DNA from: Kappaphycus alvarezii
Lineage: Eukaryota; Rhodophyta; Florideophyceae; Gigartinales; Solieriaceae
DNA: 64,000 nucleotides
Assembly: GCA_002205965.3 (NCBI GenBank)
Contig: NADL03000006.1
Coordinates: forward strand, 248,001 to 312,000
Reading direction: 5' to 3'
Positions 13,243 through 56,984 of the stretch are shown piece by piece (the first letter of the stretch is position 1; each line of letters starts with the position of its first letter). Made by a program: the position numbers and the translations under genes. The notes beneath the pieces were generated by a model that worked only from the letters and a program-made list of their open reading frames with translations, did not search any database and was not told the DNA's origin.

Positions 13243-13244
13243 GC

Positions 13245-17877: not shown

Positions 17878-18327
17878 TGTAGTATCACAGCCCAAAAGAT
17901 ATGACACGTGTACACGCAGCAGGTTTTCTGTTGGAAGTCTACTGTAAGCCATACAAGCCAAGCTTACAATGTCTGACACACTACTGACCGTTGTGCTCGA
18001 CGGGTTGGCTCCCCTTATTGCGGCAAGAACAAGTGTTTACTTCTTCTGTCTGATGGCTGATGATTCTTGTCTTGGACTTGCTCCGCTACTCGGTACGCAA
18101 CCCTTTATAGACTTTTTTGTAGCCCGTCTGCACTGTATTTGAAAGTACGTACAGTACAGTGTAGAACTAGTCCACCATAAAAATTAAATCTATGGCTACA
18201 GTAGCATTTGTACTAGATTAATAGCATAAAATATCTAAGCATTTCTGCTGAGCTGTCACAGGTGCTGTGCTGGCACAGCAAACCGTTTGCTTGCTGCGCG
18301 GACTATCGCGAGCCCTTTCTGTACACA
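17878..18327 (-). repeat. 3' LTR of copia C
   Basis: The plus-strand ends are TGTAGTATCACAGCC and CTTTCTGTACACA, so it reads TG..CA on the minus strand. It is a direct repeat of 23097-23525. It contains an extra segment near 18270-18300, relative to the other LTR, that is shared with the solo LTR at 12141. Confidence 0.8.
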
Positions 18328-23096: not shown

Positions 23097-23525
23097 AGTA
23101 GTATCACAGCCCGAAAGGTATGACACGTGTAGCACGCAGCAGGTTTCTGTTGGAAGTCTACTGTAAGCCCTACAAGCCGAGCTTACAATGTCTGACACGA
23201 CTACTGACCGTTGTGATCGACGGGTTGGCTTCCCCTTATTGCGGCAAGAACAAGTGTTTACTTCTTCTGTCTGATGGCTGATGATTCTTGTCTTGGCTTG
23301 CTCCGCTACTCGGTACGCAAGCCCTTTTATAGACTTTTTTGTACCCGTCTGCACTGTATTTGAAAGTACGGTACAGTACAGTGTAGAACTAGTCCACCAT
23401 AAAAATTAAATCTAGTGGCTACAGTAGCACTTTGTACTAGATTAATAGCATAAAATATCTGAGCATTCCTGCTGAGCTGTCACAGGTGATACTCTGGCAC
23501 TATCGCGAGCCCTTTCTGTATAACA
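23097..23525 (-). repeat. 5' LTR of copia C
   Basis: Direct repeat of 17878-18327 sharing long blocks such as GTCTGATGGCTGATGATTCT. The plus-strand right end is CTTTCTGTATAACA. No 5-bp target duplication was found between the two outer flanks. Confidence 0.8.
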
Positions 23526-33160: not shown

Positions 33161-33537
33161 TATGCCGCCCAACACCTTTTATATGCTCGTCTCAAACATC
33201 CCACACTTTATCCCGCCCGTTTTGGGGACGTCTGTGTTTTGGTTCATGTCTCGTGCCCGTCCCCAGAGGTGCATAGGGTGTGCATGCAATGGAAGCCGAG
33301 ACTAAGCATTGCAATGTCCCTGGTTTGAACACGTGTGGCATTCCAATGCTGAGCCTCTATTCCATTCATTCACACTGTACGCACCTCGCGACGGAGTGCA
33401 GAGATGTGCAAAACCGTTTCGTTCGTTTTTGTGATGTTTTGTCTTGTAAGTTCGGGTTTCGCCCCTAGGACCTGGGAACTGTCGCGAAGAAGAGTCGCGG
33501 TAACGTCGATCCGTCGTGAAACTATCAAGTGGATATT

Positions 33538-33820
33538 ATGCAATGGCTGAGCGTAAAGCTATGGGCGTGGCTTTACGCATGGGGAGGGCATGATACCCTT
33601 GATGTATTTTGGAAGGGGTTTGTCAGGCGGGCTCGAGAAAACATTCGATCGAAGGAGAGTTATTTGACTGGGTTTTAGCAGGGCTGGTGTCTGAAGATGG
33701 GTTTGCTGGCTTGAACAAGTTTTGGGAAGGTGGTGGGGGGTTTGCTTGTAGTGTGTTTATGTATACAATTTGTACGATGGTGGGTGTGGCGATTCGGTCT
33801 GGAGGTGTGGCAAGGGATTT
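33538..33820 (+). pseudogene. Host ORF, 5' part, interrupted by the gypsy array
   Basis: ATG 33538 opens a 47-codon frame (MQWLSVKLWAWLYAWGGHD). After a one-base frame change near 33650 the reading continues as GELFDWVLAGLVSEDGF, a hydrophobic stretch (FACSVFMYTICTMVGVAI) and GGVARDF, where the retrotransposon begins. The same frame resumes after the array at 56721. The region holds a possible membrane segment. I do not recognise the protein family. A 9-bp inverted repeat (GCGTAAAGC) lies at 33551-33578. Upstream exons in the 33.1-33.5 kb region are possible. Confidence 0.4.
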
Positions 33821-34190
33821 TGTAATACAGGAAATGGTCCTCCCCTCATTTAATACAGGAAATGGTCCTCCCTTCACGTAATACAGGAAATGGTCCTCCC
33901 TTCACGTAAGACAGGAAATGGTCCTCCCCTCGTGTAATCCAGCAACCTACAACGATCCCGCCCTAACTTCTCCAACCGTCATTTCCAAATTTACTTCCAT
34001 TTTATCTAGATATTTTTATACTGTATTTAACCCTCTGAATCGACCCCGAATCAAGTCCCTTTTCCCTTTTAGCTTACCTCCTCCTCCAAATTCGCCTTTT
34101 TTTGAGAAGAAGGGCGCAAATGCACTATTGCAAAATCCCTTGCAGATTTATTTTACCTATTCCTAATCTATAGAACCTGCCCCGGGAGCC

Positions 34191-34198
34191 TATTTAAA
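34191..34198 (+). promoter_or_regulatory. TATA-like box for the LTR ORF
   Basis: TATTTAAA about 115 bp upstream of the ATG at 34306, followed by C-rich leader sequence. It is present in all four LTRs (41312, 48426 and 55546 regions). Confidence 0.45.
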
Positions 34199-34305
34199 CC
34201 CCTTTATTCTAAGTTCCAAATGCCCCCGATCATTTTACTCATCACCCCTCTCCCCCACACACCCAAAACACCCCATTTGCCTCCTGTTCCCCAACGTCTA
34301 TCACA

Positions 34306-34915
34306 ATGAGCAACCTTCGCCCCTCTGTCCCTATTTCCAAAAACCGCCCTTCCCGTTCCATCAATGGCCTTCGTCTCGCCGCCTACGGGCCAACCGATGC
34401 CGACGACTACATCCGGCGGCAAACAAAGAAGCAAATCATCGAGTTCGTGCGCCGCCTCTTCATAGAAGAAGAAGCGAGGGAGGTAAGTCCGGGAGAGGCT
34501 GAGAAGGTCGAGGAGGAGAGCGGGGAGTCCTTCGAGGAATGGTTAGCCCCTGAGCTAGTGTACGAGGCTCAGGAAGATGAGGAGGAGGAGGAGAGGAGGA
34601 TGAGGAGGAGGAGGATGAGGAGAGGAAGAGGAGGTGAGGAGGATGAGGAGGATGAGGAGGAGGAGAGGAGAGGAGGAGGATGAGGAGTGAGGAACAGGGG
34701 GCATGGAAAGTGTTGGACTGGTGGGGCCTGGAATAGAGAGTATGGATCAAGTTGTGCCCACGATGGAACCGGATGGAGATATCTTTAGTAGTCTAGATAT
34801 CTCCCAGGGGGAAATAGAGAGTTGTGAGCCATTCGCAGATATTTGTGGGGACTGCTTGGACAGCATGGATATTTTAGAGGAGTTGTTTGGATCTGATTTA
34901 GAGAATGGGAAATAA
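34306..34915 (+). CDS. Acidic ORF inside the LTR
   Basis: ATG 34306 opens MSNLRPSVPISKNRPS, then a basic/amphipathic segment (YIRRQTKKQIIEFVRRLF), then Glu-rich sequence running into a GAG/GAT minisatellite. Beyond that, another acidic stretch with short hydrophobic residues (SMDILEELFGSDLE) ends at 34915. Homologous ATGs lie at 41424, 48540 and 55664. The start and the C-rich, TATA-preceded leader are the same in all four LTRs. The basic N-terminal part followed by an acidic tail resembles regulatory proteins with activation domains, but that is inference from composition. The protein is part of a fossil element, and the repeat length varies between copies. I know of no named family. Confidence 0.55.
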
Positions 34916-35042
34916 GAGGACCAAATTAATTGTTAGTTTCTTAAGTATCTTTTGCTTAGAGTATATTGTCCACACAAAGTATTTTTATGCATTTCTTGGT
35001 ATCTTCTGTAGTTTTGTTCGGACTTTAGGGGTAGCCAAAAGT

Positions 35043-35051
35043 CTATATAAG
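35043..35051 (+). promoter_or_regulatory. TATA-like box for the genomic transcript
   Basis: CTATATAAG about 315 bp before the LTR end, in a typical U3 position for the main retrotransposon promoter. It is conserved in all four LTRs. The exact transcription start cannot be read from sequence. Confidence 0.45.
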
Positions 35052-35357
35052 CTGAGTAAACTGCTTCCTCATGGAGAGGTCAAGCAAGTTGGCAGACAAC
35101 TTCAAGCCAAGTCCCGAGTAGTAGGAAGTTGAGAGTCAACTTCAGACCCAAGAAAACTTTTTCTTACGCTAGTCGCAGAGCGTCGGTGGTAGACCCTGCC
35201 CCTTTTATACTTGCTTGTAGCTTCCTCAACTCTCTTCTATATACACTCCCTTTTGTTCGTTCAACAATACCACGGCAGCACTTTTGTCGCTCGCAACACC
35301 TCCTTCTCAGGGTAATTGGTTCTGAGGATCTCCTCCCCCGCCGATTTACCCCTATCA

Positions 35358-38300
35358 TTTGGTACTCTTGTGGAGGGGGTTGCACCCGAGGTATTCGAGT
35401 TGAGCAGTAGTAAGGAACACTTCGGGGGGATTTCTTTTCGGTAATCATGGATCTCAATGCTGCTCGTATAACGTTCACAGGGGGCAAGACTGAAGACGTT
35501 GAGGAGTTTCTTTACACATATGTCAACGTTGTGATGCGAGAGAAGGGCGATGAAGAGAAGGCCGCAAGTATCTTCGCCTATCTTCATGGTGACGCAAAGC
35601 ACAAATATAAGTCCAAGTTTATCGACGGGTGGTCTCTTAACGGGAATGGGCGTAACTTCGGTGAGGTATGTGAGTGGCTTGTGAAAGAGTATGCTAAGGA
35701 GGTAGAACCAGATGAGATGATTCGTACCGCCATAGAGGCCCGGCTCAACTTCGACGATTTGTTAAGCTCATTGGTGTACTTGTGTGATCTTTATGAAAAG
35801 GCTGGGTTCAACGCCCAAGCCAAGTACGGAATGCTGCGTAAGGCGGCTATGGGGGATAAGCGGCTCTCCGATTTCCTCCTCATCAAGGGCCCTCACACTT
35901 TTGATGAACTGAAGGGTACCATAGTAGAATTTGTCAAAAATTCGGAGACGTTTCAGTCACTGAGTGAGGTACCGAGGGAAACCCGCACATCGATGTCTAT
36001 CGTACATCCTGAAAAGAATTATCAAAGGCCGGCTACTAGTGCAGCGGCATTAGAATCTGTCAGGAGCGATGTCAAAAACTTGGAAGAAAGGTTGGAAACC
36101 CGATTCGATAATCGACTTGACATGATAACCTCGCAGTTGGAAAGCCTTACTCTTACCATTAAGAAGAACCAGTCTGGGGCCCCTAAGGCCGCAGAAGTCT
36201 GTTCTTACTGTCACAAGCCTGGACACTTTGCAAACAGGTGTCCTGATAATCCACATAGAAACACTCGTTGTGCAAAGTGCGGTCGATATGGGCATCATGA
36301 AAGTAACTGCTGGTCTAAAGACAACAGAAGAGCAAATTTATCGGAAGCAAGGAGTGAGTCAGGACCAGAGGTGAAAATCTTACAAAATAGAAGGGATCAA
36401 AGGTTGACGGATGCCGGTAACGTATCCATCGCTGAAGAGATTAGTCAAGTCAATGTGACAAAAAGGGATGGGGAAGGGAACATTTTATCGAAGAAACCTA
36501 GGCTAGAGTATGGAATGCTGGAGCATATCCCAGCACCTGTACCTCCTCGAACCAAGAGGTCTGATCAAGTTGTTCCAGGAGTGGGAGTCACTCCGGCCAA
36601 GAAGACGAAAAAGAGTAAGAAAGTTAAGAGTATCTCTAAGGACGTACTAGAGTATGTGAAGAGGTACAATTTGGTGGCTGAGCTTGCATCGGCCCCAACT
36701 GGGATAACGTTTGGTCAACTTTTGAGGGGCGACGCAGAGGATGCGAGAAAAGAACTCAAAAAAATTATCAGGTCTAATAAGTCCGCTAAGGGTAAGAAAC
36801 TGTTTTTCAATCGGCCTCGACAGCACCAAGACGTCTTAAGCTGGTACCAGTCAAAGTATTGGGTATGAAAACCCAAGCTCTCTTCGATTCGGGTGCTGTT
36901 CCAAACCTCATTTCAGAAACTTTGGTGACAGATCTAGGTCTCGAAATTATCCAACGACTCGAAAAATAACTGTAGCGGATGGAACCGTCTCAAAATGCAT
37001 GGGCACTGTTGACAAGGTTTCCGTGTTCTTTGGGGACTCTAAAGTTGATGTAGACTTTCTTGTCATGCCGGATCTCCCTTTCGATGCAATCATTGGCTGC
37101 CCTACCATGGAAAGACTAGGGACATGCATTGACTTGGGCAACCAAATGGTTTCAGTTAATATTGACGGCAGAACCGTGAAGATGCCCCTGGATTTCGACA
37201 AAAGCACGCATCCTGAAGATTTAAAAGAAACGGACAGTGAAGATTTCACTTCTAGCTATGACAGCGAAGATTCGGAACCAACTAACACTTTCGAAGTGGA
37301 AAAGGGTACCCTCGGGGGTTAATGAACATGGCATGGGACGATTATGATTCCGGGTTTGAAACAGATGACGACTGGGATTCTAGGATAAGTTTGAAACCCG
37401 AATGTGTTTCTTTTTGCGATGATATCGAATCAAAGGACAGAATTCGGAGCATGAAAGAAGATTACCTTTGCAAAGAAAATAAGAATACGTCGAATTCCAT
37501 ATATGAAGATGTGAGCACGACGGAAGAGGTCCTTCAAAATATTGAGGTTGAGGATCAAGAAGAAAAAGGGCGCCAAATGGCAGAAATCCAAGGAAAAGTG
37601 CAGCACCTTCCCGCCCCGCCTCACTGAAAATATCCGACATGTTAACATCTTCCGAAGTAATTGCATGGAGCGTTTCAGATTTAAGACAAGCAAGTGTACC
37701 GGTTACTCACTCGTTCGAACTTACCGACACTCAACCGATTTACCACAAGCCTAGACGTCAACCGCCAAAATATGACCAATTTATCTCAGAAAATGTTACA
37801 AGTATGCTGAAAAATGATATTATTCGACCAGTTTCATCCCCATGGTCGTTTCCAGTTGTGGTCGCACCAAAGAAGGATGGAAAGCTGCGTTTTTGCGTCG
37901 ATTACCGACAACTGAACCAGAGAATGATACCCGATCGATTTCCGATTCCGAACATGGAGGAGATCCTCGAGGACCTGAAGGACGGGAGATATTTCACCTC
38001 AATTGACCTTTACACTGGCTATTGGCAGATTCCATTGGATGAAAAATGTAAGGAAAAAACAACCTTTACCAGCAAAGCCGGTACGTTCAGGTTCGAAGTG
38101 ATGCCTTTTGGTCTCATGAATGCACCAGCTACATTCCAAAGAATGATGAACGAGGTTTTGAAAGGACTTCCATTCGCAAGAGTCTATATCGATGATGTCG
38201 TCATATTCTCAGAAACATTGGATCAGCACATCTCGCACGTCAAGACAGTTGTGGAGAGGATATCGGAGTATAGCTTGAAAATTAAGTTGAGCAAATGCTT

Positions 38301-40943
38301 CTTTGCGAAAACTTCTATCCAATTACTCGGTCATATCGTCGACCAAGAGGGAATTAGAGTGGATCCAGAGAAAACGAAAAAAATAAAGTTGGCACCAAGG
38401 CCCGCTTCAAAGACGGAGGTCCGAAGCTTCTTAGGACTGGCCTCATATTACAGAAGATTTATCAAAGATTTCGCCAAGACTGCAGCACCGTTACATGCCA
38501 GCACTACGAAGAACGGAAAATTTTACTGGAACAAGGAAATGGAAACTGCATTTCAGGAGCTTAAAGATAAGCTATGTGTCCCCCCAGTTCTCATGTACCC
38601 AGATTTCAAGAGACCATTCGTTGTGGAGACAGATGCCTCAGAACGGTCTTTGGGTGCCGTTTTGTCCCAAAAAGATGAAAACGGAAGACTACACCCTGTT
38701 CAATTCGCAAGCCGAACTCTGAATGACGCGGAAAAGAGATACTCAGTCTGCGAGAAAGAAGCGCTAGCTGTCGTCTTCGCGCTGAAAAAGTTTCGCGTAT
38801 ACCTTTTATCACTCGAGAAATTTGTCTTGATAACTGATCACCAGGCACTTAAAACAGCATTCCAAAAGAAGGATGTACATCACCGCTTGGCCCGATGGCT
38901 CGACATTTTCGCAGAATATCGGTTTGAAATTGTGTATAGACCCGGACGCAATAATCAGCCTGCCGATTACCTATCCCGCTTGAGGGACGCACTGATTCCA
39001 AATGAAAAAGCTTCGGAGGACATCGTCGGAGTCGCCGAGTTGCAGTTGCCGAACGATAACGAGTACGAAGCTAATATTCACGGACTGATCAAATTCCTCG
39101 ATGGACTAGAAATGAGAAAGGTTGATCTTGAACACCGAAATTGGGTACGCAGGAATCAAAAGGCTTTTACATTGTGGAATGGGAAACTTTTCCGGCACAC
39201 TAAAGCCGGTCCCCGACTAGTGGCCCCTTTGAAAGAAAGAATGAAGATCTTGAGGACTTTCCATGATGAGCTAGGGCATTGGGATCTCGAAACAACCAAA
39301 AATTCGTAACTGAGAGATTCTGGTGGCCCGGTATCCATAAGGACGTCTATAACTTCGTGAAAAGCTGCGACAACTGCCAAAAATTCACTCCAATACGGAA
39401 GTATAAGACAACTCTAAGTTTTCCAGTTTCCGGTCTCTTTGAAACCTTCTCAATTGACTTCGCGGCCCGTTCAAGGAAACTTCTTCCGGAAACAAATATC
39501 TCCTTATAGGGGTGGAACATCTTACTGGATGGCCAATAGCAGTTGCAGTCGAGGAGGCAAATGCTGAGGTGGTACTGAGATTCATCGAAAAAGAAATAAT
39601 TGAACCGTTTGGTCTTCCAAAAAGGATCATCTCGGATAACGCCCTTTGTTTTACTGCAACTTCACTGCTTCGTTTTTGGAAGAGAAAGGGATTCAGCTGA
39701 AGACCGTTCTCGCATACGCTCCTATGTCCAACGGGAAAGCGGAGAGGATGGTTGGAACCATCAAACGAGCAATATCGAAAACTATGTTGGAGAATGAAAT
39801 CCAGTGGGAAGATGCCTTACCAAAAGTGTTATACGGCTACCGTCGAAGAAGAGGAAGAAATGGACGCTCACCATTCGAGCTAATGTACGGAAGGGCTCCT
39901 AGAATGTTACAGAGAGACATGGAAACAAATATTATCGATGAAGAGAGTAGGGAAGTTGAACTACTGGCCACCGAAGGCTGGAGATCACACCGCGCGCTAA
40001 CACAGACAAAATAAGGAAGCAGGTCCAGAGTTTGTGGAGGTAATATATCATTACTATAGGAAGATATGGAATGGTAGCTGCTGGAGACTTGTCGCAAACG
40101 TATCTGAATATTATCCGTCCAATTTACGTATTTCTCAAGAACAACCAAGACGTGCGACTGAGAGGTTACGCCTTACCCCCGGATATGGAATACAGGCTGG
40201 TCCCGTATCCTCTATGGGAACCTTACGTTTCTCCGCCACAAATTGGGAACGTTGGAGGCGGCGAGGATCCTCCTGAAGCAGTGATGATGACCAGAGGGGA
40301 CCTTCAGGAGACAACAGCCCGCCCAGAAGAGGTTCCGGTCGTCCCCCGAGAGGACCTCGTGCAGGTCCCAGTACGTCAGGAGCTGGTCGCGGCCATTCAT
40401 CGGGACCGTCCACCACAACTTCATCTCTAGCTTTGCTTCACAACCATGCACAGCATACAGTCGGAAGAAGAAGATTATCTTTTTGGCTGCGCAATATCTC
40501 CGAGGATGCGAACGATGCGCAGGTCATTTCTATTTCATGATAAGCATCTGTTTATGTTTTTAGGGCGCTACATGGACCGCACTTATCTTACGAAGATTCG
40601 TTCTTGATGATGCGCGTCTTCTTTTCTTATCGACATCCATTCCTCCGGCATCTTCCAGAAGAGTTTGCATATCACATATATTTTTTCACTCTTGGAAGAT
40701 TCGGAAGAGTCACGGAAGAAGAATGTATTCAACCCCACCTCGATGTGATCAAACCAATATATGAGGCTATGCTACAAAGTGAGGTACCAGTAATGCGAAC
40801 CTACTTTTTAGAGCATCATATTGGTAATCAGTTGCATCCGTACCCGTTTGAGAGACCATACATTTTATCAATAAGACAGCGAACACTAACGGAAGCAGAA
40901 GAAGAGCAGTGACGACCCGGGACGTTCGCCTGAGAAAGGGGCG
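35358..40943 (+). mobile_element. Internal region, unit 1 (gag-pol and downstream ORFs)
   Basis: Gag starts at ATG 35447 (MDLNAARITFTGG) and holds two zinc knuckles, CSYCHKPGHFANRC and CAKCGRYGHHESNC, near 36200-36310. A protease motif, LFDSGAVPNLIS, follows near 36880. Reverse transcriptase is at about 37800-38400 (KLRFCVDYRQLN, VYIDDVVIF), RNase H at about 38615-38900 (VVETDASERSLGAVL), the integrase zinc finger at about 39260-39400 (HDELGHWD, CDNCQK) and the catalytic core at about 39450-39800. Two further short ORFs follow. It encodes virus-like-particle and replication proteins of a Ty3/gypsy element. Several interruptions are present. Confidence 0.9.
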
Positions 40944-42470
40944 TGTAATACAAAAAATGGTCCTCCCTCATTTAATACAGGAAATGGTCCTCCCTTCACG
41001 TAATACAGGAAATGGTCCTCCCTTCACGTAAGACAGGAAATGGTCCTCCCCTCGTGTAATCCAGCAACCTACAACGATCCCGCCCTAACTTCTCCAACCG
41101 TCATTTCCAAATTTACTTCCATTTTATCTAGATATTTTTATACTGTATTTAACCCTCTGAATCGACCCCGAATCAAGTCCCTTTTCCCTTTAGCTTACCT
41201 CCTCCTCCAAATTCGCCTTTTTTTGAGAAGAAGGGCGCAAATGCACTATTGCAAAATCCCTTGCAGATTTATTTTACCTATTCCTAATCTATAGAACCTG
41301 CCCCGGGAGCCTATTTAAACCCCTTTATTCTAAGTTCCAAATGCCCCGATCATTTTACTCATCACCCCTCTCCCCCACACACCCAAAACACCCCATTGCC
41401 TCCTGTTCCCAACGTCTATCACAATGAGCAACCTTCGCCCCTCTGTCCCTATTTCCAAAAACCGCCCTTCCCGTTCCATCAATGGCCTTCGTCTCGCCGC
41501 CTACGGGCCAACCGATGCCGACGACTACATCCGGCGGCAAACAAAGAAGCAAATCATCGAGTTCGTGCGCCGCCTCTTCATAGAAGAAGAAGCGAGGGAG
41601 GTAAGTCCGGGAGAGGCTGAGAAGGTCGAGGAGGAGAGCGGGGAGTCCTTCGAGGAATGGTTAGCCCCTGAGCTAGTGTACGAGGCTCAGGAAGATGAGG
41701 AGGAGGAGGAGAGGAGGATGAGGAGGATGAGGAGGATGAGGAGGAGGAAGAGGAGGAGGAGGATGAGAGGATGAGGAGGAGAGGAGAGGAAGAGGAGGAT
41801 GAGGAGGATGAGGGAACAGGGGGCATGGAAAGTGTTGGACTGGTGGGGCCTGGAATAGAGAGTATGGATCAAGTTGTGCCCACGATGGAACCGGATGGAG
41901 ATATCTTTAGTAGTCTAGATATCTCCCAGGGGAAATAGAGAGTTGTGAGCCATTCGCAGATATTTGTGGGGACTGCTTGGACAGCATGGATATTTTAGAG
42001 GAGTTGTTTGGATCTGATTTAGAGAATGGGAAATAAGAGGACCAAATTAATTGTTAGTTTCTTAAGTATCTTTTGCTTAGAGTATATTGTCCACACAAAG
42101 TATTTTTATGCATTTCTTGTATCTTCTGTAGTTTTGTTCGGACTTTAGGGGTAGCCAAAAGTCTATATAAGCTGAGTAAACTGCTTCCTCATGGAGAGGT
42201 CAAGCAAGTTGGCAGACAACTTCAAGCCAAGTCCCGAGTAGTAGGAAGTTGAGAGTCAACTTCAGACCCAAGAAAACTTTTCTTACGCTAGTCGCAGAGC
42301 GTCGTGGTAGACCCTGCCCCTTTTATACTTGCTTGTAGCTTCCAACTCTCTTCTATACACTCCCTTTTTTCGTTCAACAATACCACGGCAGCACTTTTGT
42401 CGCTCGCAACACCTCCTTCTCAGGGTAATTGGTTCTGAGGATCTCCTCCCCCGCCGATTTACCCCTATCA
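40944..42470 (+). repeat. LTR 2 of the gypsy array
   Basis: 1527 bp, begins TGTAATACAAAAAATGG and ends CCCTATCA. It serves as 3' LTR of unit 1 and 5' LTR of unit 2. The layout is as in LTR 1. Confidence 0.92.
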
Positions 42471-45400
42471 TTTGGTACTCTTGTGGAGGGGGTTGCACCC
42501 GAGGTATTCGAGTTGAGCAGTAGTAAGGAACACTTCGGGGGATTTCTTTTCGTAATCATGGATCTCAATGCTGCTCGTATAACGTTCACAGGGGCAAGAC
42601 TGAAGACGTTGAGGAGTTTCTTTACACATATGTCAACGTTGTGATGCGAGAGAAGGGCGATGAAGAGAAGGCCGCAAGTATCTTCGCCTATCTTCATGGT
42701 GACGCAAAGCACAAATATAAGTCCAAGTTTATCGACGGGTGGTCTCTTAACGGGAATGGGCGTAACTTCGGTGAGGTATGTGAGTGGCTTGTGAAAGAGT
42801 ATGCTAAGGAGGTAGAACCAGATGAGATGATTCGTACCGCCATAGAGGCCCGGCTCAACTTCGACGATTTGTTAAGCTCATTGGTGTACTTGTGTGATCT
42901 TTATGAAAAGGCTGGGTTCAACGCCCAAGCCAAGTACGGAATGCTGCGTAAGGCGGCTATGGGGGATAAGCGGCTCTCCGATTTCCTCCTCATCAAGGGC
43001 CCTCACACTTTTGATGAACTGAAGGGTACCATAGTAGAATTTGTCAAAAATTCGGAGACGTTTCAGTCACTGAGTGAGGTACCGAGGGAAACCCGCACAT
43101 CGATGTCTATCGTACATCCTGAAAAGAATTATCAAAGGCCGGCTACTAGTGCAGCGGCATTAGAATCTGTCAGGAGCGATGTCAAAAACTTGGAAGAAAG
43201 GTTGGAAACCCGATTCGATAATCGACTTGACATGATAACCTCGCAGTTGGAAAGCCTTACTCTTACCATTAAGAAGAACCAGTCTGGGGCCCCTAAGGCC
43301 GCAGAAGTCTGTTCTTACTGTCACAAGCCTGGACACTTTGCAAACAGGTGTCCTGATAATCCACATAGAAACACTCGTTGTGCAAAGTGCGGTCGATATG
43401 GGCATCATGAAAGTAACTGCTGGTCTAAAGACAACAGAAGAGCAAATTTATCGGAAGCAAGGAGTGAGTCAGGACCAGAGGTGAAAATCTTACAAAATAG
43501 AAGGGATCAAAGGTTGACGGATGCCGGTAACGTATCCATCGCTGAAGAGATTAGTCAAGTCAATGTGACAAAAAGGGATGGGGAAGGGAACATTTTATCG
43601 AAGAAACCTAGGCTAGAGTATGGAATGCTGGAGCATATCCCAGCACCTGTACCTCCTCGAACCAAGAGGTCTGATCAAGTTGTTCCAGGAGTGGGAGTCA
43701 CTCCGGCCAAGAAGACGAAAAAGAGTAAGAAAGTTAAGAGTATCTCTAAGGACGTACTAGAGTATGTGAAGAGGTACAATTTGGTGGCTGAGCTTGCATC
43801 GGCCCCAACTGGGATAACGTTTGGTCAACTTTTGAGGGGCGACGCAGAGGATGCGAGAAAAGAACTCAAAAAAATTATCAGGTCTAATAAGTCCGCTAAG
43901 GGTAAGAAACTGTTTCTTCAATCGGCCTCGACAGCACCAAGACGTCTTAAGCTGGTACCAGTCAAAGTATTGGGTATGAAAACCCAAGCTCTCTTCGATT
44001 CGGGTGCTGTTCCAAACCTCATTTCAGAAACTTTGGTGACAGATCTAGGTCTCGAAATTACTCCAACGACTCGAAAAATAACTGTAGCGGATGGAACCGT
44101 CTCAAAATGCATGGGCACTGTTGACAAGGTTTCCGTGTTCTTTGGGGACTCTAAAGTTGATGTAGACTTTCTTGTCATGCCGGATCTCCCTTTCGATGCA
44201 ATCATTGGCTGCCCTACCATGGAAAGACTAGGGACATGCATTGACTTGGGCAACCAAATGGTTTCAGTTAATATTGACGGCAGAACCGTGAAGATGCCCC
44301 TGGATTTCGACAAAAGCACGCATCCTGAAGATTTAAAAGAAACGGACAGTGAAGATTTCACTTCTAGCTATGACAGCGAAGATTCGGAACCAACTAACAC
44401 TTTCGGAAGTGGAAAAGGGTACCCTCGGGGGTTAATGAACATGGCATGGGACGATTATGATTCCGGGTTTGAAACAGATGACGACTGGGATTCTAGGATA
44501 AGTTTGAAACCCGAATGTGTTTCTTTTTGCGATGATATCGAATCAAAGGACAGAATTCGGAGCATGAAAGAAGATTACCTTTGCAAAGAAAATAAGAATA
44601 CGTCGAATTCCATATATGAAGATGTGAGCACGACGGAAGAGGTCCTTCAAAATATTGAGGTTGAGGATCAAGAAGAAAAAGGGCGCCAAATGGCAGAAAT
44701 CCAAGGAAAAGTGCAGCACCTTCCCGCCCCCCTCACTGAAAATATCCGACATGTTAACATCTTCCGAAGTAATTGCATGGAGCGTTTCAGATTTAACAAG
44801 CAAGTGTACCGGTTACTCACTCGTTCGAACTTACCGACACTCAACCGATTTACCACAAGCCTAGACGTCAACCGCCAAAATATGACCAATTTATCTCAGA
44901 AAATGTTACAAGTATGCTGAAAAATGATATTATTCGACCAGTTTCATCCCCATGGTCGTTTCCAGTTGTGGTCGCACCAAAGAAGGATGGAAAGCTGCGT
45001 TTTTGCGTCGATTACCGACAACTGAACCAGAGAATGATACCCGATCGATTTCCGATTCCGAACATGGAGGAGATCCTCGAGGACCTGAAGGACGGGAGAT
45101 ATTTCACCTCAATTGACCTTTACACTGGCTATTGGCAGATTCCATTGGATGAAAAATGTAAGGAAAAAACAACCTTTACCAGCAAAGCCGGTACGTTCAG
45201 GTTCGAAGTGATGCCTTTTGGTCTCATGAATGCACCAGCTACATTCCAAAGAATGATGAACGAGGTTTTGAAAGGACTTCCATTCGCAAGAGTCTATATC
45301 GATGATGTCGTCATATTCTCAGAAACATTGGATCAGCACATCTCGCACGTCAAGACAGTTGTGGAGAGGATATCGGAGTATAGCTTGAAAATTAAGTTGA

Positions 45401-48058
45401 GCAAATGCTTCTTTGCGAAAACTTCTATCCAATTACTCGGTCATATCGTCGACCAAGAGGGAATTAGAGTGGATCCAGAGAAAACGAAAAAAATAAAGTT
45501 GGCACCAAGGCCCGCTTCAAAGACGGAGGTCCGAAGCTTCTTAGGACTGGCCTCATATTACAGAAGATTTATCAAAGATTTCGCCAAGACTGCAGCACCG
45601 TTACATGCCAGCACTACGAAGAACGGAAAATTTTACTGGAACAAGGAAATGGAAACTGCATTTCAGGAGCTTAAAGATAAGCTATGTGTCCCCCCAGTTC
45701 TCATGTACCCAGATTTCAAGAGACCATTCGTTGTGGAGACAGATGCCTCAGAACGGTCTTTGGGTGCCGTTTTGTCCCAAAAAGATGAAAACGGAAGACT
45801 ACACCCTGTTCAATTCGCAAGCCGAACTCTGAATGACGCGGAAAAGAGATACTCAGTCTGCGAGAAAGAAGCGCTAGCTGTCGTCTTCGCGCTGAAAAAG
45901 TTTCGCGTATACCTTTTATCACTCGAGAAATTTGTCTTGATAACTGATCACCAGGCACTTAAAACAGCATTCCAAAAGAAGGATGTACATCACCGCTTGG
46001 CCCGATGGCTCGACATTTTCGCAGAATATCGGTTTGAAATTGTGTATAGACCCGGACGCAATAATCAGCCTGCCGATTACCTATCCCGCTTGAGGGACGC
46101 ACTGATTCCAAATGAAAAAGCTTCGGAGGACATCGTCGGAGTCGCCGAGTTGCAGTTGCCGAACGATAACGAGTACGAAGCTAATATTCACGGACTGATC
46201 AAATTCCTCGATGGACTAGAAATGAGAAAGGTTGATCTTGAACACCGAAATTGGGTACGCAGGAATCAAAAGGCTTTTACATTGTGGAATGGGAAACTTT
46301 CCGGCACACTAAAGCCGGTCCCCGACTAGTGGCCCCTTTGAAAGAAAGAATGAAGATCTTGAGGACTTTCCATGATGAGCTAGGGCATTGGGATCTCGAA
46401 ACAACCAAAAAATTCGTAACTGAGAGATTCTGGTGGCCCGGTATCCATAAGGACGTCTATAACTTCGTGAAAAGCTGCGACAACTGCCAAAAATTCACTC
46501 CAATACGGAAGTATAAGACAACTCTAAGTTTTCCAGTTTCCGGTCTCTTTGAAACCTTCTCAATTGACTTCGCGGCCCGTTCAAGGAAACTTCTTCCGGA
46601 AACAAATATCTCCTTATAGGGGTGGAACATCTTACTGGATGGCCAATAGCAGTTGCAGTCGAGGAGGCAAATGCTGAGGTGGTACTGAGATTCATCGAAA
46701 AAGAAATAATTGAACCGTTTGGTCTTCCAAAAAGGATCATCTCGGATAACGCCCTTTGTTTTACTGCAACTTCACTGCTTCGTTTTTTGGAAGAGAAAGG
46801 GATTCAGCTGAAGACCGTTCTCGCATACGCTCCTATGTCCAACGGGAAAGCGGAGAGGATGGTTGGAACCATCAAACGAGCAATATCGAAAACTATGTTG
46901 GAGAATGAAATCCAGTGGGAAGATGCCTTACCAAAAGTGTTATACGGCTACCGTCGAAGAAGAGGAAGAAATGGACGCTCACCATTCGAGCTAATGTACG
47001 GAAGGGCTCCTAGAATGTTACAGAGAGACATGGAAACAAATATTATCGATGAAGAGAGTAGGGAAGTTGAACTACTGGCCACCAAGGCTGGAGATCACAC
47101 CGCGCGCTAACACAGACAGGAAATAAGGAAGCAGGTCCAGAGTTTGTGGAGGTAATATATCATTACTCTATAGGAAGATATGGAATGGTAGCTGCTGGAG
47201 ACTTGTCGCAAACGTATCTGAATATTATCCGTCCAATTTACGTATTTCTCAAGAACAACCAAGACGTGCGACTGAGAGGTTACGCCTTACCCCCGATATG
47301 GAATACAGGCTGGTCCCGTATCCTCTATGGGAACCTTACGTTTCTCCGCCACAAATTGGGAACGTTGGAGGCGGCGAGGATCCTCCTGAAGCAGTGATGA
47401 TGACCAGAGGGGACCTTCAGGAGACAACAGCCCGCCCAGAAGAGGTTCCGGTCGTCCCCCGAGAGGACCTCGTGCAGGTCCCAGTACGTCAGGAGCTGGT
47501 CGCGGCCATTCATCGGGACCGTCCACCACAACTTCATCTCTAGCTTTGCTTCACAACCATGCACAGCATACAGTCGGAAGAAGAAGATTATCTTTTTGGC
47601 TGCGCAATATCTCCGAGGATGCGAACGATGCGCAGGTCATTTCTATTTCATGATAAGCATCTGTTTATGTTTTTAGGGCGCTACATGGACCGCACTTATC
47701 TTACGAAGATTCGTTTCTTGATGATGCGCGTCTTCTTTTCTTATCGACATCCATTCCTCCGGCATCTTCCAGAAGAGTTTGCATATCACATATATTTTTT
47801 CACTCTTGGAAGATTCGGAAGAGTCACGGAAGAAGAATGTATTCAACCCACCTCGATGTGATCAAACCAATATATGAGGCTATGCTACAAAGTGAGGTAC
47901 CAGTAATGCGAACCTACTTTTTAGAGCATCATATTGGTAATCAGTTGCATCCGTACCCGTTTGAGAGACCATACATTTTATCAATAAGACAGCGAACACT
48001 AACGGAAGCAGAAGAAGAGCAGTGACGACCCGGGACGTTCGCCTTGAGAAAGGGGGCG
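42471..48058 (+). mobile_element. Internal region, unit 2
   Basis: Same layout as unit 1: gag from ATG 42558, zinc knuckles near 43310-43420, protease near 43990, reverse transcriptase near 44915-45510, RNase H near 45730-46020, integrase near 46370-46900, then the two downstream ORFs. Nucleotide identity to units 1 and 3 is extremely high. Several interruptions are present. Confidence 0.9.
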
Positions 48059-49591
48059 TGTAATACAAAAAATGGTCCTCCCTCATTTAATACAGGAAAT
48101 GGTCCTCCTTCACGTAATACAGGAAATGGTCCTCCTTCACGTAAGACAGGAAATGGTCCTCCCCTCGTGTAATCCAGCAACCTACAACGATCCCGCCCTA
48201 ACTTCTCCAACCGTCATTTCCAAATTTACTTCCATTTTATCTAGATATTTTTATACTGTATTTAACCCTCTGAATCGACCCCGAATCAAGTCCCTTTTCC
48301 TTTTAGCTTACCTCCTCCTCCAAATTCGCCTTTTTTTGAGAAGAAGGGCGCAAATGCACTATTGCAAAATCCCTTGCAGATTTATTTTACCTATTCCTAA
48401 TCTATAGAACCTGCCCCGGGAGCCTATTTAAACCCCTTTATTCTAAGTTCCAAATGCCCCCGATCATTTTACTCATCACCCCTCTCCCCCCACACACCCA
48501 AAACACCCCATATTGCCTCTGTTCCCAACGTCTATCACAATGAGCAACCTTCGCCCCTCTGTCCCTATTTCCAAAAACCGCCCTTCCCGTTCCATCAATG
48601 GCCTTCGTCTCGCCGCCTACGGGCCAACCGATGCCGACGACTACATCCGGCGGCAAACAAAGAAGCAAATCATCGAGTTCGTGCGCCGCCTCTTCATAGA
48701 AGAAGAAGCGAGGGAGGTAAGTCCGGGAGAGGCTGAGAAGGTCGAGGAGGAGAGCGGGGAGTCCTTCGAGGAATGGTTAGCCCCTGAGCTAGTGTACGAG
48801 GCTCAGGAAGATGAGGAGGAGAGGAGGAGGAGGATGAGGAGGATGAGGAGGATGAGGATGAGGAAGAGGAGGAGGAGGATGAGGAGGATGAGGAGGATGA
48901 GGATGAGGAAGAGAGGAGGATGAGGAGGATGAGGGAACAGGGGGCATGGAAAGTGTTGGACTGGTGGGCCTGGAATAGAGAGTATGGATCAAGTTGTGCC
49001 CACGATGGAACCGGATGGAGATATCTTTAGTAGTCTAGATATCTCCGCGGGGGAAATAGAGAGTTGTGAGCCATTCGCAGATATTTGTGGGGACTGCTTG
49101 GACAGCATGGATATTTTAGAGGAGTTGTTTGGATCTGATTTAGAGAATGGGAAATAAGAGACCAAATTCATTGTTAGTTTCTTAAGTATCTTTTGCTTAG
49201 AGTATATTGTCCACAAAAGTATTTTTATGCATTTCTTGTATCTTCTGTAGTTTTGTTCGGACTTTAGGGGTAGCCAAAAGTCTATATAAGCTGAGTAAAC
49301 TGCTTCCTCATGGAGAGGTCAAGCAAGTTGGCAGACAACTTCAAGCCAAGTCCCGAGTAGTAGGAAGTTGAGAGTCAACTTCAGACCCAAGAAAACTTTT
49401 CTTACGCTAGGCAGAGCGTCGTGGTAGACCCTGCCCCTTTTATACTTGCTTGTAGCTTCTCAACTCTCTTCTATATACACTCCCTTTTGTTCGTTCAACA
49501 ATACCACGGCAGCACTTTTGTCGCTCGCAACACCTCCTTCTCAGGGTAATTGGTTCTGAGGATCTCCTCCCCCGCCGATTTACCCCTATCA
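48059..49591 (+). repeat. LTR 3 of the gypsy array
   Basis: 1533 bp, shared between units 2 and 3. It has the same ends as LTR 2 and a different length of the GAG/GAT minisatellite. Confidence 0.92.
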
Positions 49592-52500
49592 TTTGGTACT
49601 CTTGTGGAGGGGGTTGCACCCGAGGTATTCGAGTTGAGCAGTAGTAAGGAACACTTCGGGGGGATTTCTTTTCGGTAATCATGGATCTCAATGCTGCGTA
49701 TAACGTTCACAGGGGGCAAGACTGAAGACGTTGAGGAGTTTCTTTACACATATGTCAACGTTGTGATGCGAGAGAAGGGCGATGAAGAGAAGGCCGCAAG
49801 TATCTTCGCCTATCTTCATGGTGACGCAAAGCACAAATATAAGTCCAAGTTTATCGACGGGTGGTCTCTTAACGGGAATGGGCGTAACTTCGGTGAGGTA
49901 TGTGAGTGGCTTGTGAAAGAGTATGCTAAGGAGGTAGAACCAGATGAGATGATTCGTACCGCCATAGAGGCCCGGCTCAACTTCGACGATTTGTTAAGCT
50001 CATTGGTGTACTTGTGTGATCTTTATGAAAAGGCTGGGTTCAACGCCCAAGCCAAGTACGGAATGCTGCGTAAGGCGGCTATGGGGGATAAGCGGCTCTC
50101 CGATTTCCTCCTCATCAAGGGCCCTCACACTTTTGATGAACTGAAGGGTACCATAGTAGAATTTGTCAAAAATTCGGAGACGTTTCAGTCACTGAGTGAG
50201 GTACCGAGGGAAACCCGCACATCGATGTCTATCGTACATCCTGAAAAGAATTATCAAAGGCCGGCTACTAGTGCAGCGGCATTAGAATCTGTCAGGAGCG
50301 ATGTCAAAAACTTGGAAGAAAGGTTGGAAACCCGATTCGATAATCGACTTGACATGATAACCTCGCAGTTGGAAAGCCTTACTCTTACCATTAAGAAGAA
50401 CCAGTCTGGGGCCCCTAAGGCCGCAGAAGTCTGTTCTTACTGTCACAAGCCTGGACACTTTGCAAACAGGTGTCCTGATAATCCACATAGAAACACTCGT
50501 TGTGCAAAGTGCGGTCGATATGGGCATCATGAAAGTAACTGCTGGTCTAAAGACAACAGAAGAGCAAATTTATCGGAAGCAAGGAGTGAGTCAGGACCAG
50601 AGGTGAAAATCTTACAAAATAGAAGGGATCAAAGGTTGACGGATGCCGGTAACGTATCCATCGCTGAAGAGATTAGTCAAGTCAATGTGACAAAAAGGGA
50701 TGGGGAAGGGAACATTTTATCGAAGAAACCTAGGCTAGAGTATGGAATGCTGGAGCATATCCCAGCACCTGTACCTCCTCGAACCAAGAGGTCTGATCAA
50801 GTTGTTCCAGGAGTGGGAGTCACTCCGGCCAAGAAGACGAAAAAGAGTAAGAAAGTTAAGAGTATCTCTAAGGACGTACTAGAGTATGTGAAGAGGTACA
50901 ATTTGGTGGCTGAGCTTGCATCGGCCCCAACTGGGATAACGTTTGGTCAACTTTTGAGGGGCGACGCAGAGGATGCGAGAAAAGAACTCAAAAAAATTAT
51001 CAGGTCTAATAAGTCCGCTAAGGGTAAGAAACTGTTTCTTCAATCGGCCTCGACAGCACCAAGACGTCTTAAGCTGGTACCAGTCAAAGTATTGGGTATG
51101 AAAACCCAAGCTCTCTTCGATTCGGGTGCTGTTCCAAACCTCATTTCAGAAACTTTGGTGACAGATCTAGGTCTCGAAATTACTCCAACGACTCGAAAAA
51201 TAACTGTAGCGGATGGAACCGTCTCAAAATGCATGGGCACTGTTGACAAGGTTTCCGTGTTCTTTGGGGACTAAAGTTGATGTAGACTTTCTTGTCATGC
51301 CGGATCTCCCTTTCGATGCAATCATTGGCTGCCCTACCATGGAAAGACTAGGGACATGCATTGACTTGGGCAACCAAATGGTTTCAGTTAATATTGACGG
51401 CAGAACCGTGAAGATGCCCCTGGATTTCGACAAAAGCACGCATCCTGAAGATTTAAAAGAAACGGACAGTGAAGATTTCACTTCTAGCTATGACAGCGAA
51501 GATTCGGAACCAACTAACACTTTCGAAGTGGAAAAGGGTACCCTCGGGGGTTAATGAACATGGCATGGGACGATTATGATTCCGGGTTTGAAACAGATGA
51601 CGACTGGGATTCTAGGATAAGTTTGAAACCCGAATGTGTTTCTTTTTGCGATGATATCGAATCAAAGGACAGAATTCGGAGCATGAAAGAAGATTACCTT
51701 TGCAAAGAAAATAAGAATACGTCGAATCCATATATGAAGATGTGAGCACGACGGAAGAGGTCCTTCAAAATATTGAGGTTGAGGATCAAGAAGAAAAAGG
51801 GCGCCAAATGGCAGAAATCCAAGGAAAAGTGCAGCACCTTCCCGCCCCGCCTCACTGAAAATATCCGACATGTTAACATCTTCCGAAGTAATTGCATGGA
51901 GCGTTTCAGATTTAGACAAGCAAGTGTACCGGTTACTCACTCGTTCGAACTTACCGACACTCAACCGATTTACCACAAGCCTAGACGTCAACCGCCAAAA
52001 TATGACCAATTTATCTCAGAAAATGTTACAAGTATGCTGAAAAATGATATTATTCGACCAGTTTCATCCCCATGGTCGTTTCCAGTTGTGGTCGCACCAA
52101 AGAAGGATGGAAAGCTGCGTTTTTGCGTCGATTACCGACAACTGAACCAGAGAATGATACCCGATCGATTTCCGATTCCGAACATGGAGGAGATCCTCGA
52201 GGACCTGAAGGACGGGAGATATTTCACCTCAATTGACCTTTACACTGGCTATTGGCAGATTCCATTGGATGAAAAATGTAAGGAAAAAACAACCTTTACC
52301 AGCAAAGCCGGTACGTTCAGGTTCGAAGTGATGCCTTTTGGTCTCATGAATGCACCAGCTACATTCCAAAGAATGATGAACGAGGTTTTGAAAGGACTTC
52401 CATTCGCAAGAGTCTATATCGATGATGTCGTCATATTCTCAGAAACATTGGATCAGCACATCTCGCACGTCAAGACAGTTGTGGAGAGGATATCGGAGTA

Positions 52501-54279
52501 TAGCTTGAAAATTAAGTTGAGCAAATGCTTCTTTGCGAAAACTTCTATCCAATTACTCGGTCATATCGTCGACCAAGAGGGAATTAGAGTGGATCCAGAG
52601 AAAACGAAAAAAATAGTTGGCACCAAGGCCCGCTTCAAAGACGGAGGTCCGAAGCTTCTTAGGACTGGCCTCATATTACAGAAGATTTATCAAAGATTTC
52701 GCCAAGACTGCAGCACCGTTACATGCCAGCACTACGAAGAACGGAAAATTTTACTGGAACAAGGAAATGGAAACTGCATTTCAGGAGCTTAAAGATAAGC
52801 TATGTGTCCCCCCAGTTCTCATGTACCCAGATTTCAAGAGACCATTCGTTGTGGAGACAGATGCCTCAGAACGGTCTTTGGGTGCCGTTTTGTCCCAAAA
52901 AGATGAAAACGGAAGACTACACCCTGTTCAATTCGCAAGCCGAACTCTGAATGACGCGAAAAGAGATACTCAGTCTGCGAGAAAGAAGCGCTAGCTGTCG
53001 TCTTCGCGCTGAAAAAGTTTCGCGTATACCTTTTATCACTCGAGAAATTTGTCTTGATAACTGATCACCAGGCACTTAAAACAGCATTCCAAAAGAAGGA
53101 TGTACATCACCGCTTGGCCCGATGGCTCGACATTTACGCAGAATATCGGTTTGAAATTGTGTATAGACCCGGACGCAATAATCAGCCTGCCGATTACCTA
53201 TCCCGCTTGAGGGACGCACTGATTCCAAATGAAAAAGCTTCGGAGGACATCGTCGGAGTCGCCGAGTTGCAGTTGCCGAACGATAACGAGTACGAAGCTA
53301 ATATTCACGGACTGATCAAATTCCTCGATGGACTAGAAATGAGAAAGGTTGATCTTGAACACCGAAATTGGGTACGCAGGAATCAAAAGGCTTTTACATT
53401 GTGGAATGGGAAACTTTCCGGCACACTAAAGCCGGTCCCCGACTAGTGGCCCCTTTGAAAGAAAGAATGAAGATCTTGAGGACTTTCCATGATGAGCTAG
53501 GGCATTGGGATCTCGAAACAACCAAAAAATTCGTAACTGAGAGATTCTGGTGGCCCGGTATCCATAAGGACGTCTATAACTTCGTGAAAAGCTGCGACAA
53601 CTGCCAAAAATTCACTCCAATACGGAAGTATAAGACAACTCTAAGTTTTCCAGTTTCCGGTCTCTTTGAAACCTTCTCAATTGACTTCGCGGGCCCGTTC
53701 AAGGAAACTTCTTCCGGAAACAAATATCTCCTTATAGGGGTGGAACATCTTACTGGATGGCCAATAGCAGTTGCAGTCGAGGAGGCAAATGCTGAGGTGG
53801 TACTGAGATTCATCGAAAAAGAAATAATTGAACCGTTTGGTCTTCCAAAAAGGATCATCTCGGATAACGCCCTTTGTTTTACTGCAACTTCACTGCTTCG
53901 TTTTTTGGAAGAGAAAGGGATTCAGCTGAAGACCGTTCTCGCATACGCTCCTATGTCCAACGGGAAAGCGGAGAGGATGGTTGGAACCATCAAACGAGCA
54001 ATATCGAAAACTATGTTGGAGAATGAAATCCAGTGGGAAGATGCCTTACCAAAAGTGTTATACGGCTACCGTCGAAGAAGAGGAAGAAATGGACGCTCAC
54101 CATTCGAGCTAATGTACGGAAGGGCTCCTAGAATGTTACAGAGAGACATGGAAACAAATATTATCGATGAAGAGAGTAGGGAAGTTGAACTACTGGCCAC
54201 CGAAGGCTGGAGATCACACCGCGCGCTAACACAGACAGGAAATAAGGAAGCAGGTCCAGAGTTTGTGGAGGTAATATAT

Positions 54280-54663
54280 CATTACTCTATAGGAAGATAT
54301 GGAATGGTAGCTGCTGGAGACTTGTCGCAAACGTATCTGAATATTATCCGTCCAATTTACGTATTTCTCAAGAACAACCAAGACGTGCGACTGAGAGGTT
54401 ACGCCTTACCCCCGGATATGGAATACAGGCTGGTCCCGTATCCTCTATGGGAACCTTACGTTTCTCCGCCACAAATTGGGAACGTTGGAGGCGGCGAGGA
54501 TCCTCCTGAAGCAGTGATGATGACCAGAGGGGACCTTCAGGAGACAACAGCCCGCCCAGAAGAGGTTCCGGTCGTCCCCCGAGAGGACCTCGTGCAGGTC
54601 CCAGTACGTCAGGAGCTGGTCGCGGCCATTCATCGGGACCGTCCACCACAACTTCATCTCTAG
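54280..54663 (+). CDS. Post-integrase domain A (unit 3; same in units 1 and 2)
   Basis: Downstream of the integrase core, the pol frame continues into YLNIIRPIYVFLKNNQDVRL, then a LxPYPLWEPYVSP block, and a Pro/Glu-rich tail to 54663. It shares its pattern with domain B further downstream. I do not recognise the family; it is not a chromodomain, which many gypsy integrases have at this place. Matching parts lie at about 40034-40430 and 47146-47543. Confidence 0.5.
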   Translation, partial: HYSIGRYGMVAAGDLSQTYLNIIRPIYVFLKNNQDVRLRGYALPPDMEYRLVPYPLWEPYVSPPQIGNVGGGEDPPEAVMMTRGDLQETTARPEEVPVVPREDLVQVPVRQELVAAIHRDRPPQLHL

Positions 54664-54840
54664 CTTTGCTTCACACACCATGCACAGCATACAGTCGGAA
54701 GAAGAAGATTATCTTTTTGGCTGCGCAATATCTCCGAGGATGCGAACGATGCGCAGGTCATTTCATATTTCATGATAAGCATCTGTTTATGTTTTAGGGC
54801 GCTACATGGACCGCACTTATCTTACGAAGATTCGTTCTTG

Positions 54841-55143
54841 ATGATGCGCGTCTTCTTTTCTTATCGACATCCATTCCTCCGGCATCTTCCAGAAGAGTTT
54901 GCATATCACATATATTTTTTCACTCTTGGAAGATTCGGAGTCACGGAAGAAGAATGTATTCAACCCCACCTCGATGTGATCAAACCAATATATGAGGCTA
55001 TGCTACAAAGTGAGGTACCAGTAATGCGAACCTACTTTTTAGAGCATCATATTGGTAATCAGTTGCATCCGTACCCGTTTGAGAGACCATACATTTTATC
55101 AATAAGACAGCGAACACTAACGGAAGCAGAAGAAGAGCAGTGA
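54841..55143 (+). CDS. Post-integrase domain B (unit 3; same in units 1 and 2)
   Basis: MMRVFFSYRHPFLRHLPEEF opens a short ORF that ends just before the purine tract of the 3' LTR. Its second half reads HLDVIKPIYEAMLQSEVPVM, then LHPYPFERPYILS, which mirrors domain A (NIIRPIY..., LVPYPLWEPYVSP) with the same spacing. It sits in the position where some LTR elements carry an envelope-like or accessory gene. No signal peptide or clear membrane segment is seen. Matching parts lie at 40604-40912 and about 47715-48025. Confidence 0.5.
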   Translation: MMRVFFSYRHPFLRHLPEEFAYHIYFFTLGRFGVTEEECIQPHLDVIKPIYEAMLQSEVPVMRTYFLEHHIGNQLHPYPFERPYILSIRQRTLTEAEEEQ

Positions 55144-55176
55144 CGACCCGGGACGTTCGCCTTGAGAAAGGGGGCG

Positions 55177-56720
55177 TGTAATACAAAAAATGGTCCTCCC
55201 CATTTAATACAGGAAATGGTCCTCCCTTCACGTAATACAGGAAATGGTCCTCCCTTCACGTAAGACAGGAAATGGTCCTCCCCTCGTGTAATCCAGCAAC
55301 CTACAACGATCCCGCCCCTAACTTCTCCAACCGTCATTTCCAAATTTACTTCCATTTTATCTAGATATTTTTTATACTGTATTTAACCCTCTGAATCGAC
55401 CCCGAATCAAGTCCCTTTTCCCTTTTAGCTTACCTCCTCCTCCAAATTCGCCTTTTTTTGAGAAGAAGGGCGCAAATGCACTATTGCAAAATCCCTTGCA
55501 GATTTATTTTACCTATTCCTAATCTATAGAACCTGCCCCGGGAGCCTATTTAAACCCCTTTATTCTAAGTTCCAAATGCCCCCGATCATTTTACTCATCA
55601 CCCCTCTCCCCCCACACACCCAAAACACCCCATATTGCCTCCTGTTCCCCAACGTCTATCACAATGAGCAACCTTCGCCCCTCTGTCCCTATTTCCAAAA
55701 ACCGCCCTTCCCGTTCCATCAATGGCCTTCGTCTCGCCGCCTACGGGCCAACGATGCCGACGACTACATCCGGCGGCAAACAAAGAAGCAAATCATCGAG
55801 TTCGTGCGCCGCCTCTTCATAGAAGAAGAAGCGAGGGAGGTAAGTCCGGGAGAGGCTGAGAAGGTCGAGGAGGAGAGCGGGAGTCCTTCGAGGAATGGTT
55901 AGCCCCTGAGCTAGTGTACGAGGCTCAGGAAGATGAGGAGGAGGAGGAGGAGGAGGATGAGGAGGATGAGGAGGATGAGGATGAGGAAGAGGAGGAGGAG
56001 GATGAGGAGGATGAGGAGGATGAGGATGAGGAAGAGGAGGAGGATGAGGAGGATGAGGGAACAGGGGGCATGGAAAGTGTTGGACTGGTGGGCCTGGAAT
56101 AGAGAGTATGGATCAAGTTGTGCCCACGATGGAACCGGATGGAGATATCTTTAGTAGTCTAGATATCTCCCAGGGGGAAATAGAGAGTTGTGAGCCATTC
56201 GCAGATATTTGTGGGGACTGCTTGGACAGCATGGATATTTTAGAGGAGTTGTTTGGATCTGATTTAGAGAATGGGAAATAAGAGACCAAATTCATTGTTA
56301 GTTTCTTAAGTATCTTTTGCTTAGAGTATATTGTCCACAAAAGTATTTTTATGCATTTCTTGTATCTTCTGTAGTTTTGTTCGGACTTTAGGGGTAGCCA
56401 AAAGTCTATATAAGCTGAGTAATCTGCTTCCTCATGAAGAGGTCAAGCAAGTTGGCAGACAACTTCAAGCCAAGTCCCGAGTAGTAGGAAGTTGAGAGTC
56501 AACTTCAGACCAAGAAAACTTTTCCTTACGCTAGTCGCAGAGCGTCGGTGGTAGACCCTGCCCCTTTTATACTTGCTTGTAGCTTCCTCAACTCTCTTCT
56601 TTATACACTCCCTTTTATTCGTTCAACAATACCACGGCAGCACTTTTGTCGCTCGCAACACCTCCTTCTCAGGGTAATTGGTTCTGAGGATCTCCTCCCC
56701 CGCCCGATTTACCCCTATCA
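55177..56720 (+). repeat. LTR 4 of the gypsy array
   Basis: 1544 bp, terminal 3' LTR. It ends at 56720 and is followed directly by the target duplication GATTT. It carries the longest uninterrupted GAG/GAT run of the four. Confidence 0.92.
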
Positions 56721-56984
56721 GATTTTTCAAGGGAATGTGATTGTGGAAGAGTTGGGAGTTTGGCACTTGTGAAGAAAGGGTCGTTTAAGTTGGAATGGGC
56801 CATGTTACTGAAATCAATTCCCGTCGCTCTCAAAGTACTCCCTGGCGTCTGTTTGAGCGATATGTTTTGGCGCCCAAACAATTGCGAGAGACAGTGGCAA
56901 CGTTCTCTTGTCGGGCTTTGTGCTTTGCGAGAATATAGTCTGCCTGTAGAGTTTGGTCATGGTAGTGTGAGAAGTGTTTCATAA
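56721..56984 (+). pseudogene. Host ORF, 3' part, after the gypsy array
   Basis: Directly after the array the target duplication GATTT is followed by an open frame in phase with the interrupted frame at 33820: codons for Ser-Arg-Glu, then LALVKKGSFKLEWAMLLKSI, VCLSDMFWRPNNCERQWQ and a stop at 56984. That the frame stays open for 88 codons across the junction supports a real coding region split by the insertion. The family is not recognised. Confidence 0.45.

Follow-up and report, generated by a model that had tools for sequence, protein, structure and literature searches.

A 64-kb window of the red alga Kappaphycus alvarezii (C6:248001-312000, the whole stretch analysed here, within a 336-Mb assembly of 884 contigs in which C6 measures 1.18 Mb) contains three units of a predicted gypsy-like long terminal repeat (LTR) retrotransposon. 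These units share their inner LTRs, lie within one 5-bp target site duplication and probably result from a single insertion that was amplified in place by unequal crossing-over between LTRs. Self-comparison of the window placed the units, of about 7.12 kb each, head to tail, with four LTRs (1527-1544 bp) alternating with three internal regions (5585-5588 bp) and an LTR at both ends of the array. Every one of the four LTRs starts with TG and ends with CA, and the start-to-start spacings are 7123, 7115 and 7118 bp. This arrangement, including the single GATTT duplication and the spacings, had been proposed from the letters alone (the sequence-only reading hereafter), and was confirmed to the base. 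The positions are those of the window.

33816..33820, + strand: GATTT, left copy of the target site duplication (flank comparison, empty site)
33821..35357, + strand: LTR1, the 5' outer LTR, 1537 bp
35358..40943, + strand: internal region 1, 5586 bp
40944..42470, + strand: LTR2, 1527 bp, common to units 1 and 2
42471..48058, + strand: internal region 2, 5588 bp
48059..49591, + strand: LTR3, 1533 bp, common to units 2 and 3
49592..55176, + strand: internal region 3, 5585 bp
55177..56720, + strand: LTR4, the 3' outer LTR, 1544 bp
56721..56725, + strand: GATTT, right copy of the target site duplication (flank comparison, empty site)

GATTT is thus present on both outer sides of the array, and no duplication was found at any of its inner boundaries, where LTRs directly abut internal sequence. 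An empty site carrying a single GATTT was recovered on C45; it is a paralogue and not an allele. The joined flanks of the array (300+300 bp) aligned to this paralogue with 90% identity (538/595), unbroken across the junction. Because the alignment to a one-GATTT site is unbroken, the duplication goes beyond a chance match, and the single GATTT of the empty site indicates that the array is one clean insertion; the check for inner duplications that accompanied the sequence-only reading also came out in its favour. Nested insertions were ruled out by the direct LTR-internal boundaries together with the absence of inner duplications, and the joining of two different insertions was rejected for the window array, given the matching outer duplications and the presence of an empty site. 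A 5-base flank match was found in all four single insertions with two ends compared (GATTT, AACCC, GTGCC and ACCCC), the ACCCC duplication adjoining an LTR whose first base is C, not T. The left flank (window 33521-33820) belongs to a dispersed family with 55 candidate places; among the 40 that were scored, a 100% match was obtained at one place only, the next reaching 90%.

Some further observations concern the target sequence and its relatives. Four members of the left-flank family are spaced by about 10.5 kb on C677 (798000-829950), which suggests a tandem array of their own. The empty-site paralogue (L029 47-763, minus strand) holds a 238-aa open frame spanning the insertion point. An 18-nt inverted match (94%) between window 33810-33827 and 34126-34143 relates the target/LTR boundary to a site within the LTR, possibly by chance.

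The common origin of the units is best seen in a deletion. When compared with the single copy L022, the same 490 bp are absent from the 3' part of the internal region in all three units, as one 490-bp gap in units 2 and 3 and, in unit 1, as the same gap, which the aligner split beside a two-base difference. In L022, the deleted stretch includes the last part of the integrase frame and the first part of the 397-aa frame that follows (7868-9061), for which no Pfam match was found. The deletion junctions are located as follows.

40009..40030, + strand: 490-bp deletion junction of unit 1
47121..47142, + strand: 490-bp deletion junction of unit 2
54240..54261, + strand: 490-bp deletion junction of unit 3

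With up to one mismatch allowed, the deletion junction matched three times in the 336-Mb assembly, once per window unit and nowhere else. The undeleted left breakpoint gave 20 exact matches in the fetched loci, with both strands searched and one place counted twice; the window contained no such match. On contigs C3-C59, 14 of 17 3' junctions could be paired with a 5' junction and three were unpaired; the paired distances were 5.58 kb for the three window units, 6.04-6.08 kb for ten others and 5.04 kb for one.

The internal regions of the window are also nearly identical, with 0, 1 and 1 substitutions per pair over 5560-5572 aligned bases in BLAST pieces. Global alignment gave 5-9 substitutions per pair, nine of the ten columns being grouped in two short clusters that adjoin gaps. 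Between loci, the median was 19 substitutions and the minimum 4 (196 pairs), and 8-67 substitutions separated units within four other arrays of the family (C335, C329, C155 and C119); these counts cover pairs with at least 4000 shared positions and exclude gap columns and the stretch missing from the window units. At 58 sites variable among the compared copies, the three window units agree wherever a base was read, and position 40317 is G in 3/3 window units and A in 21/21 other copies. The shared private deletion and the near-identical interiors thus indicate, at the level of sequence, that all three units derive from one deleted copy. Recruitment of units from other genomic copies was ruled out by the private deletion, the nearest compared copies being at least 4 substitutions away. 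The sequence-only reading had left the origin between amplification of one insertion and integration of a concatemer; the deletion and the interiors support the former, and a concatemer of several foreign complementary DNAs (cDNAs) is disfavoured.

As the empty site shows, the gypsy-like LTR retrotransposon inserted once and produced the GATTT duplication. We propose that the inserted copy carried, or soon acquired, the 490-bp deletion near its internal 3' end, which in the assembly is common to the units and private to them. Its 3' LTR would then have recombined, misaligned, with the 5' LTR on a sister or homologous chromosome to give a two-unit array, and a second misaligned LTR exchange would have given three units. 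Each exchange would create an interior LTR with its left part from a 3' LTR and its right part from a 5' or interior LTR, and would leave the outer duplication unchanged.

The four LTRs were compared with this scheme in mind, the prediction of unequal crossing-over being that an interior LTR takes its left part from the 3' LTR and its right part from the 5' LTR. The LTR contains a 28-bp tandem repeat at its start and a GA-rich tract within.

33822..33942, + strand: 28-bp tandem repeat, 4.3 copies, at the start of LTR1 (like repeats at 40945, 48060 and 55178)
34556..34705, + strand: GA-rich (AGG) tract of LTR1, fast-changing

In BLAST alignments, the left parts of LTR2-4 have 0 substitutions among themselves and differ from LTR1 by 2; on the right, LTR1 and LTR2 have 0 substitutions in 644. 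Distances over the GA-rich tract were 10.4-12.8 from LTR1 to LTR2-4 (10.8 for LTR1-LTR4), 7.3 for LTR2-LTR3, 6.6 for LTR2-LTR4 and 2.0 for LTR3-LTR4; in five presumed single elements, the paired LTRs were 4.2-23.0 apart (the far side of the one on C206 was left unchecked). Outside the tract, global alignment gave nine LTR4-only substitution columns, all at LTR position 1240 or later, which amount to four substitutions (1240, 1254, 1342 and 1419) plus a shift by one base (1329-1337). LTR3 and LTR4 have in common a substitution at position 1108, found in 0/32 other copies, as well as length differences of one base at 431, 903, 1098 and 1155. LTR3 is like LTR4 at 903-1155 and like LTR1 and LTR2 from 1240 on.

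Several points weigh against amplification by crossing-over. The signal from the LTRs is sparse and noisy. Eight substitution columns of the global alignment are private to LTR3 (246, 457-463 and 985-986; six in the left part) and three, beside a gap at 1422-1431, are private to LTR2; some of these private columns adjoin gaps and are perhaps assembly errors. One-base gaps at 247, 469, 1365 and 1405 set LTR2 and LTR3 apart from LTR1 and LTR4, a grouping not expected under the simple scheme, and gaps at 1178 and 1338 unite LTR2-4 to the right of the supposed exchange point of LTR2. LTR4-only gaps are found in the left part as well as in the right. An order of events based on one-base gaps was abandoned, as these gaps support conflicting groupings. 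The comparison of LTR variants suggested along with the sequence-only reading gave a mixed result: the tract distances and most shared substitutions fit interior LTRs that are mosaics, and some one-base gaps do not. Overall, the LTR evidence favours crossing-over without settling the question.

A private deletion common to all units would equally result if a tandem had been copied from one deleted DNA circle. In such a route, a one-LTR circle of the deleted copy would be transcribed or copied beyond one full turn, and the resulting tandem would integrate in a single step; the single outer duplication and the identical private deletion fit it equally well, and it is considered open for rice tandems in PMC11899658. 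The LTRs of a ready-made tandem would, however, start identical and drift equally, whereas the tract distances vary between 2.0 and 12.8 and LTR3 has changes in common with LTR4 alone. Moreover, the assembly yielded no deleted copy standing by itself, although such a copy may have been lost or left unassembled. We regard this route as unlikely.

It is also conceivable that an assembler miscounted units this similar and built three of them from one or two real ones. The mutually distinct tracts of the four LTRs (2.0-12.8) and the position of the array inside a 1.18-Mb contig, with a left flank matched at 100% only here and at 90% next, speak against such an artefact. It would be in line with the near-identity of the internal regions across 5.6 kb, with the frequent one-base gaps between units, as in noisy long-read assemblies (17-19 gap events per pair of internal regions, which may be assembly noise), and with the other arrays of the family that run to contig ends (C335, C329, C155 and C6 start). 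On balance, a miscount appears very unlikely, and amplification of the resident insertion between its LTRs is retained as the probable origin.

The window array is accompanied by others in the same genome. Genome-wide, 1581 junctions between an LTR end and the internal sequence after it were counted, along with 252 of one form of the 3' junction. Of the first 100 of the latter, 16 belong to six loci in which same-strand neighbours are separated by 7.1-7.7 kb, namely C6 start (C6:1-10402), the window, C119, C155, C329 and C335. The sequence-only reading described complete multi-unit arrays as rarely seen, a view that finds no support in the at least six such loci of this sample or in the description of tandem LTR-retrotransposons with one outer duplication as frequent in plants (PMC11899658). 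C119, C155, C329 and C335 have at least two comparable units each, which differ within the array. The arrays of C335, C329, C155 and C6 start are found at contig ends, and misassembly or recombination between copies may therefore explain them. At C119, the flanks do not match, possibly reflecting recombination of two different insertions. Here, only the window array combines uniform units with matching flanks; for C335, C329, C155 and C6 start, the two ends were not both available for comparison.

Differing units (8-67 substitutions within the C335, C329, C155 and C119 arrays) are what would be predicted if other copies, or their cDNAs, were added to a resident element by homologous recombination, as for yeast Ty5, and the unlike flanks of the C119 array are also in keeping with this. 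In the window, however, added units would need to carry a deletion seen nowhere else in the assembly, and we consider such an origin highly improbable there. The Ty5 tandems (Ke and Voytas 1997, as cited in PMC11899658) resemble the window array in having formed through the LTR and differ in their source, new cDNAs for Ty5 and a resident copy here. Ty5-type cDNA recombination may account for other arrays of the genome. It can be proposed, tentatively and with more doubt than confidence, that one young family forms two kinds of arrays, the window array being amplified in place from a marked insertion and those of C335, C329, C155 and C119 being mixed, built from different copies via element or cDNA recombination. 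If true, both array-forming routes could be measured side by side in one alga.

The window array belongs to a known kind, the tandem LTR-retrotransposon insertion, for which the mechanism is usually unclear. Shared-LTR tandem retrotransposons with one outer duplication have been reported in rice (PMC11899658), and the rice study, which describes such tandems as creating genome variation, could not separate recombination after insertion from insertion as a tandem. By the criteria given in that study, the array shows LTR-to-LTR alternation, one outer 5-bp duplication with none inside and a known empty site (the 90% paralogue). As described there, in rice TLI1 and TLI2 LTRs likewise alternate with internal regions, the inner LTRs are shared, the units are similar and a single short duplication lies outside; TLI2 has two internal regions, whereas the array described here has three, in a red alga, with a private deletion marking common descent. 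Centromeric arrays of LTR elements in kangaroo, cited in the same paper, were also explained by recombination between LTRs; the window array differs from them in its three units within one duplication. Among the matches listed from the open-access literature, no title concerned shared-LTR arrays in red algae. The private deletion acts as a natural label in every unit and narrows the choice of mechanism left open for rice in PMC11899658, and with additional arrays of the family available in one genome, the question of mechanism becomes countable.

The identity of the element was derived from its predicted protein domains. Protease, reverse transcriptase, RNase H and integrase were recovered across the units in the gypsy order (Pfam). 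This order and the TG...CA ends of the LTRs with a short target site duplication are those of Ty3/gypsy, and the element is classed on these grounds as a gypsy-like LTR retrotransposon. Among the 120 relatives listed for the reverse transcriptase, most have uninformative names. The reading frames stop at differing places from unit to unit, and the following segments were identified.

42641..44920, + strand: open reading frame (ORF) of 759 aa, retroviral-type aspartyl protease (Pfam)
44914..46329, + strand: ORF of 471 aa, reverse transcriptase and RNase H (Pfam)
46622-47110: integrase core of unit 2, just below the Pfam cut-off
53368..54663, + strand: ORF of 431 aa, integrase zinc-binding and core domains of unit 3, crossing the deletion junction, above the Pfam cut-off

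Protease and integrase were also found in the single copy L022 (Pfam).

In the 64-kb window, no RNA families or tRNA genes were found. A repeat of about 400 bp is present at 17879-18276 and 23098-23500 (94% identity), with related pieces at 12148-12383 and 13021-13251. An ORF at 20079-20744, on the minus strand, gave a weak integrase-core match below the curated cut-off and is perhaps another element remnant. The ORF at 23805-24410 has a match to the Pfam Plant_tran transposase and is presumably akin to Harbinger elements. Finally, a red algal host is indicated as most likely by a kinase ORF 18.6 kb to the left of the array; among the 120 matches listed, its best species-named relative is from Chondrus crispus (54% identity, rank 8), followed by relatives in Hildenbrandia, Porphyridium, Compsopogon and Pyropia.

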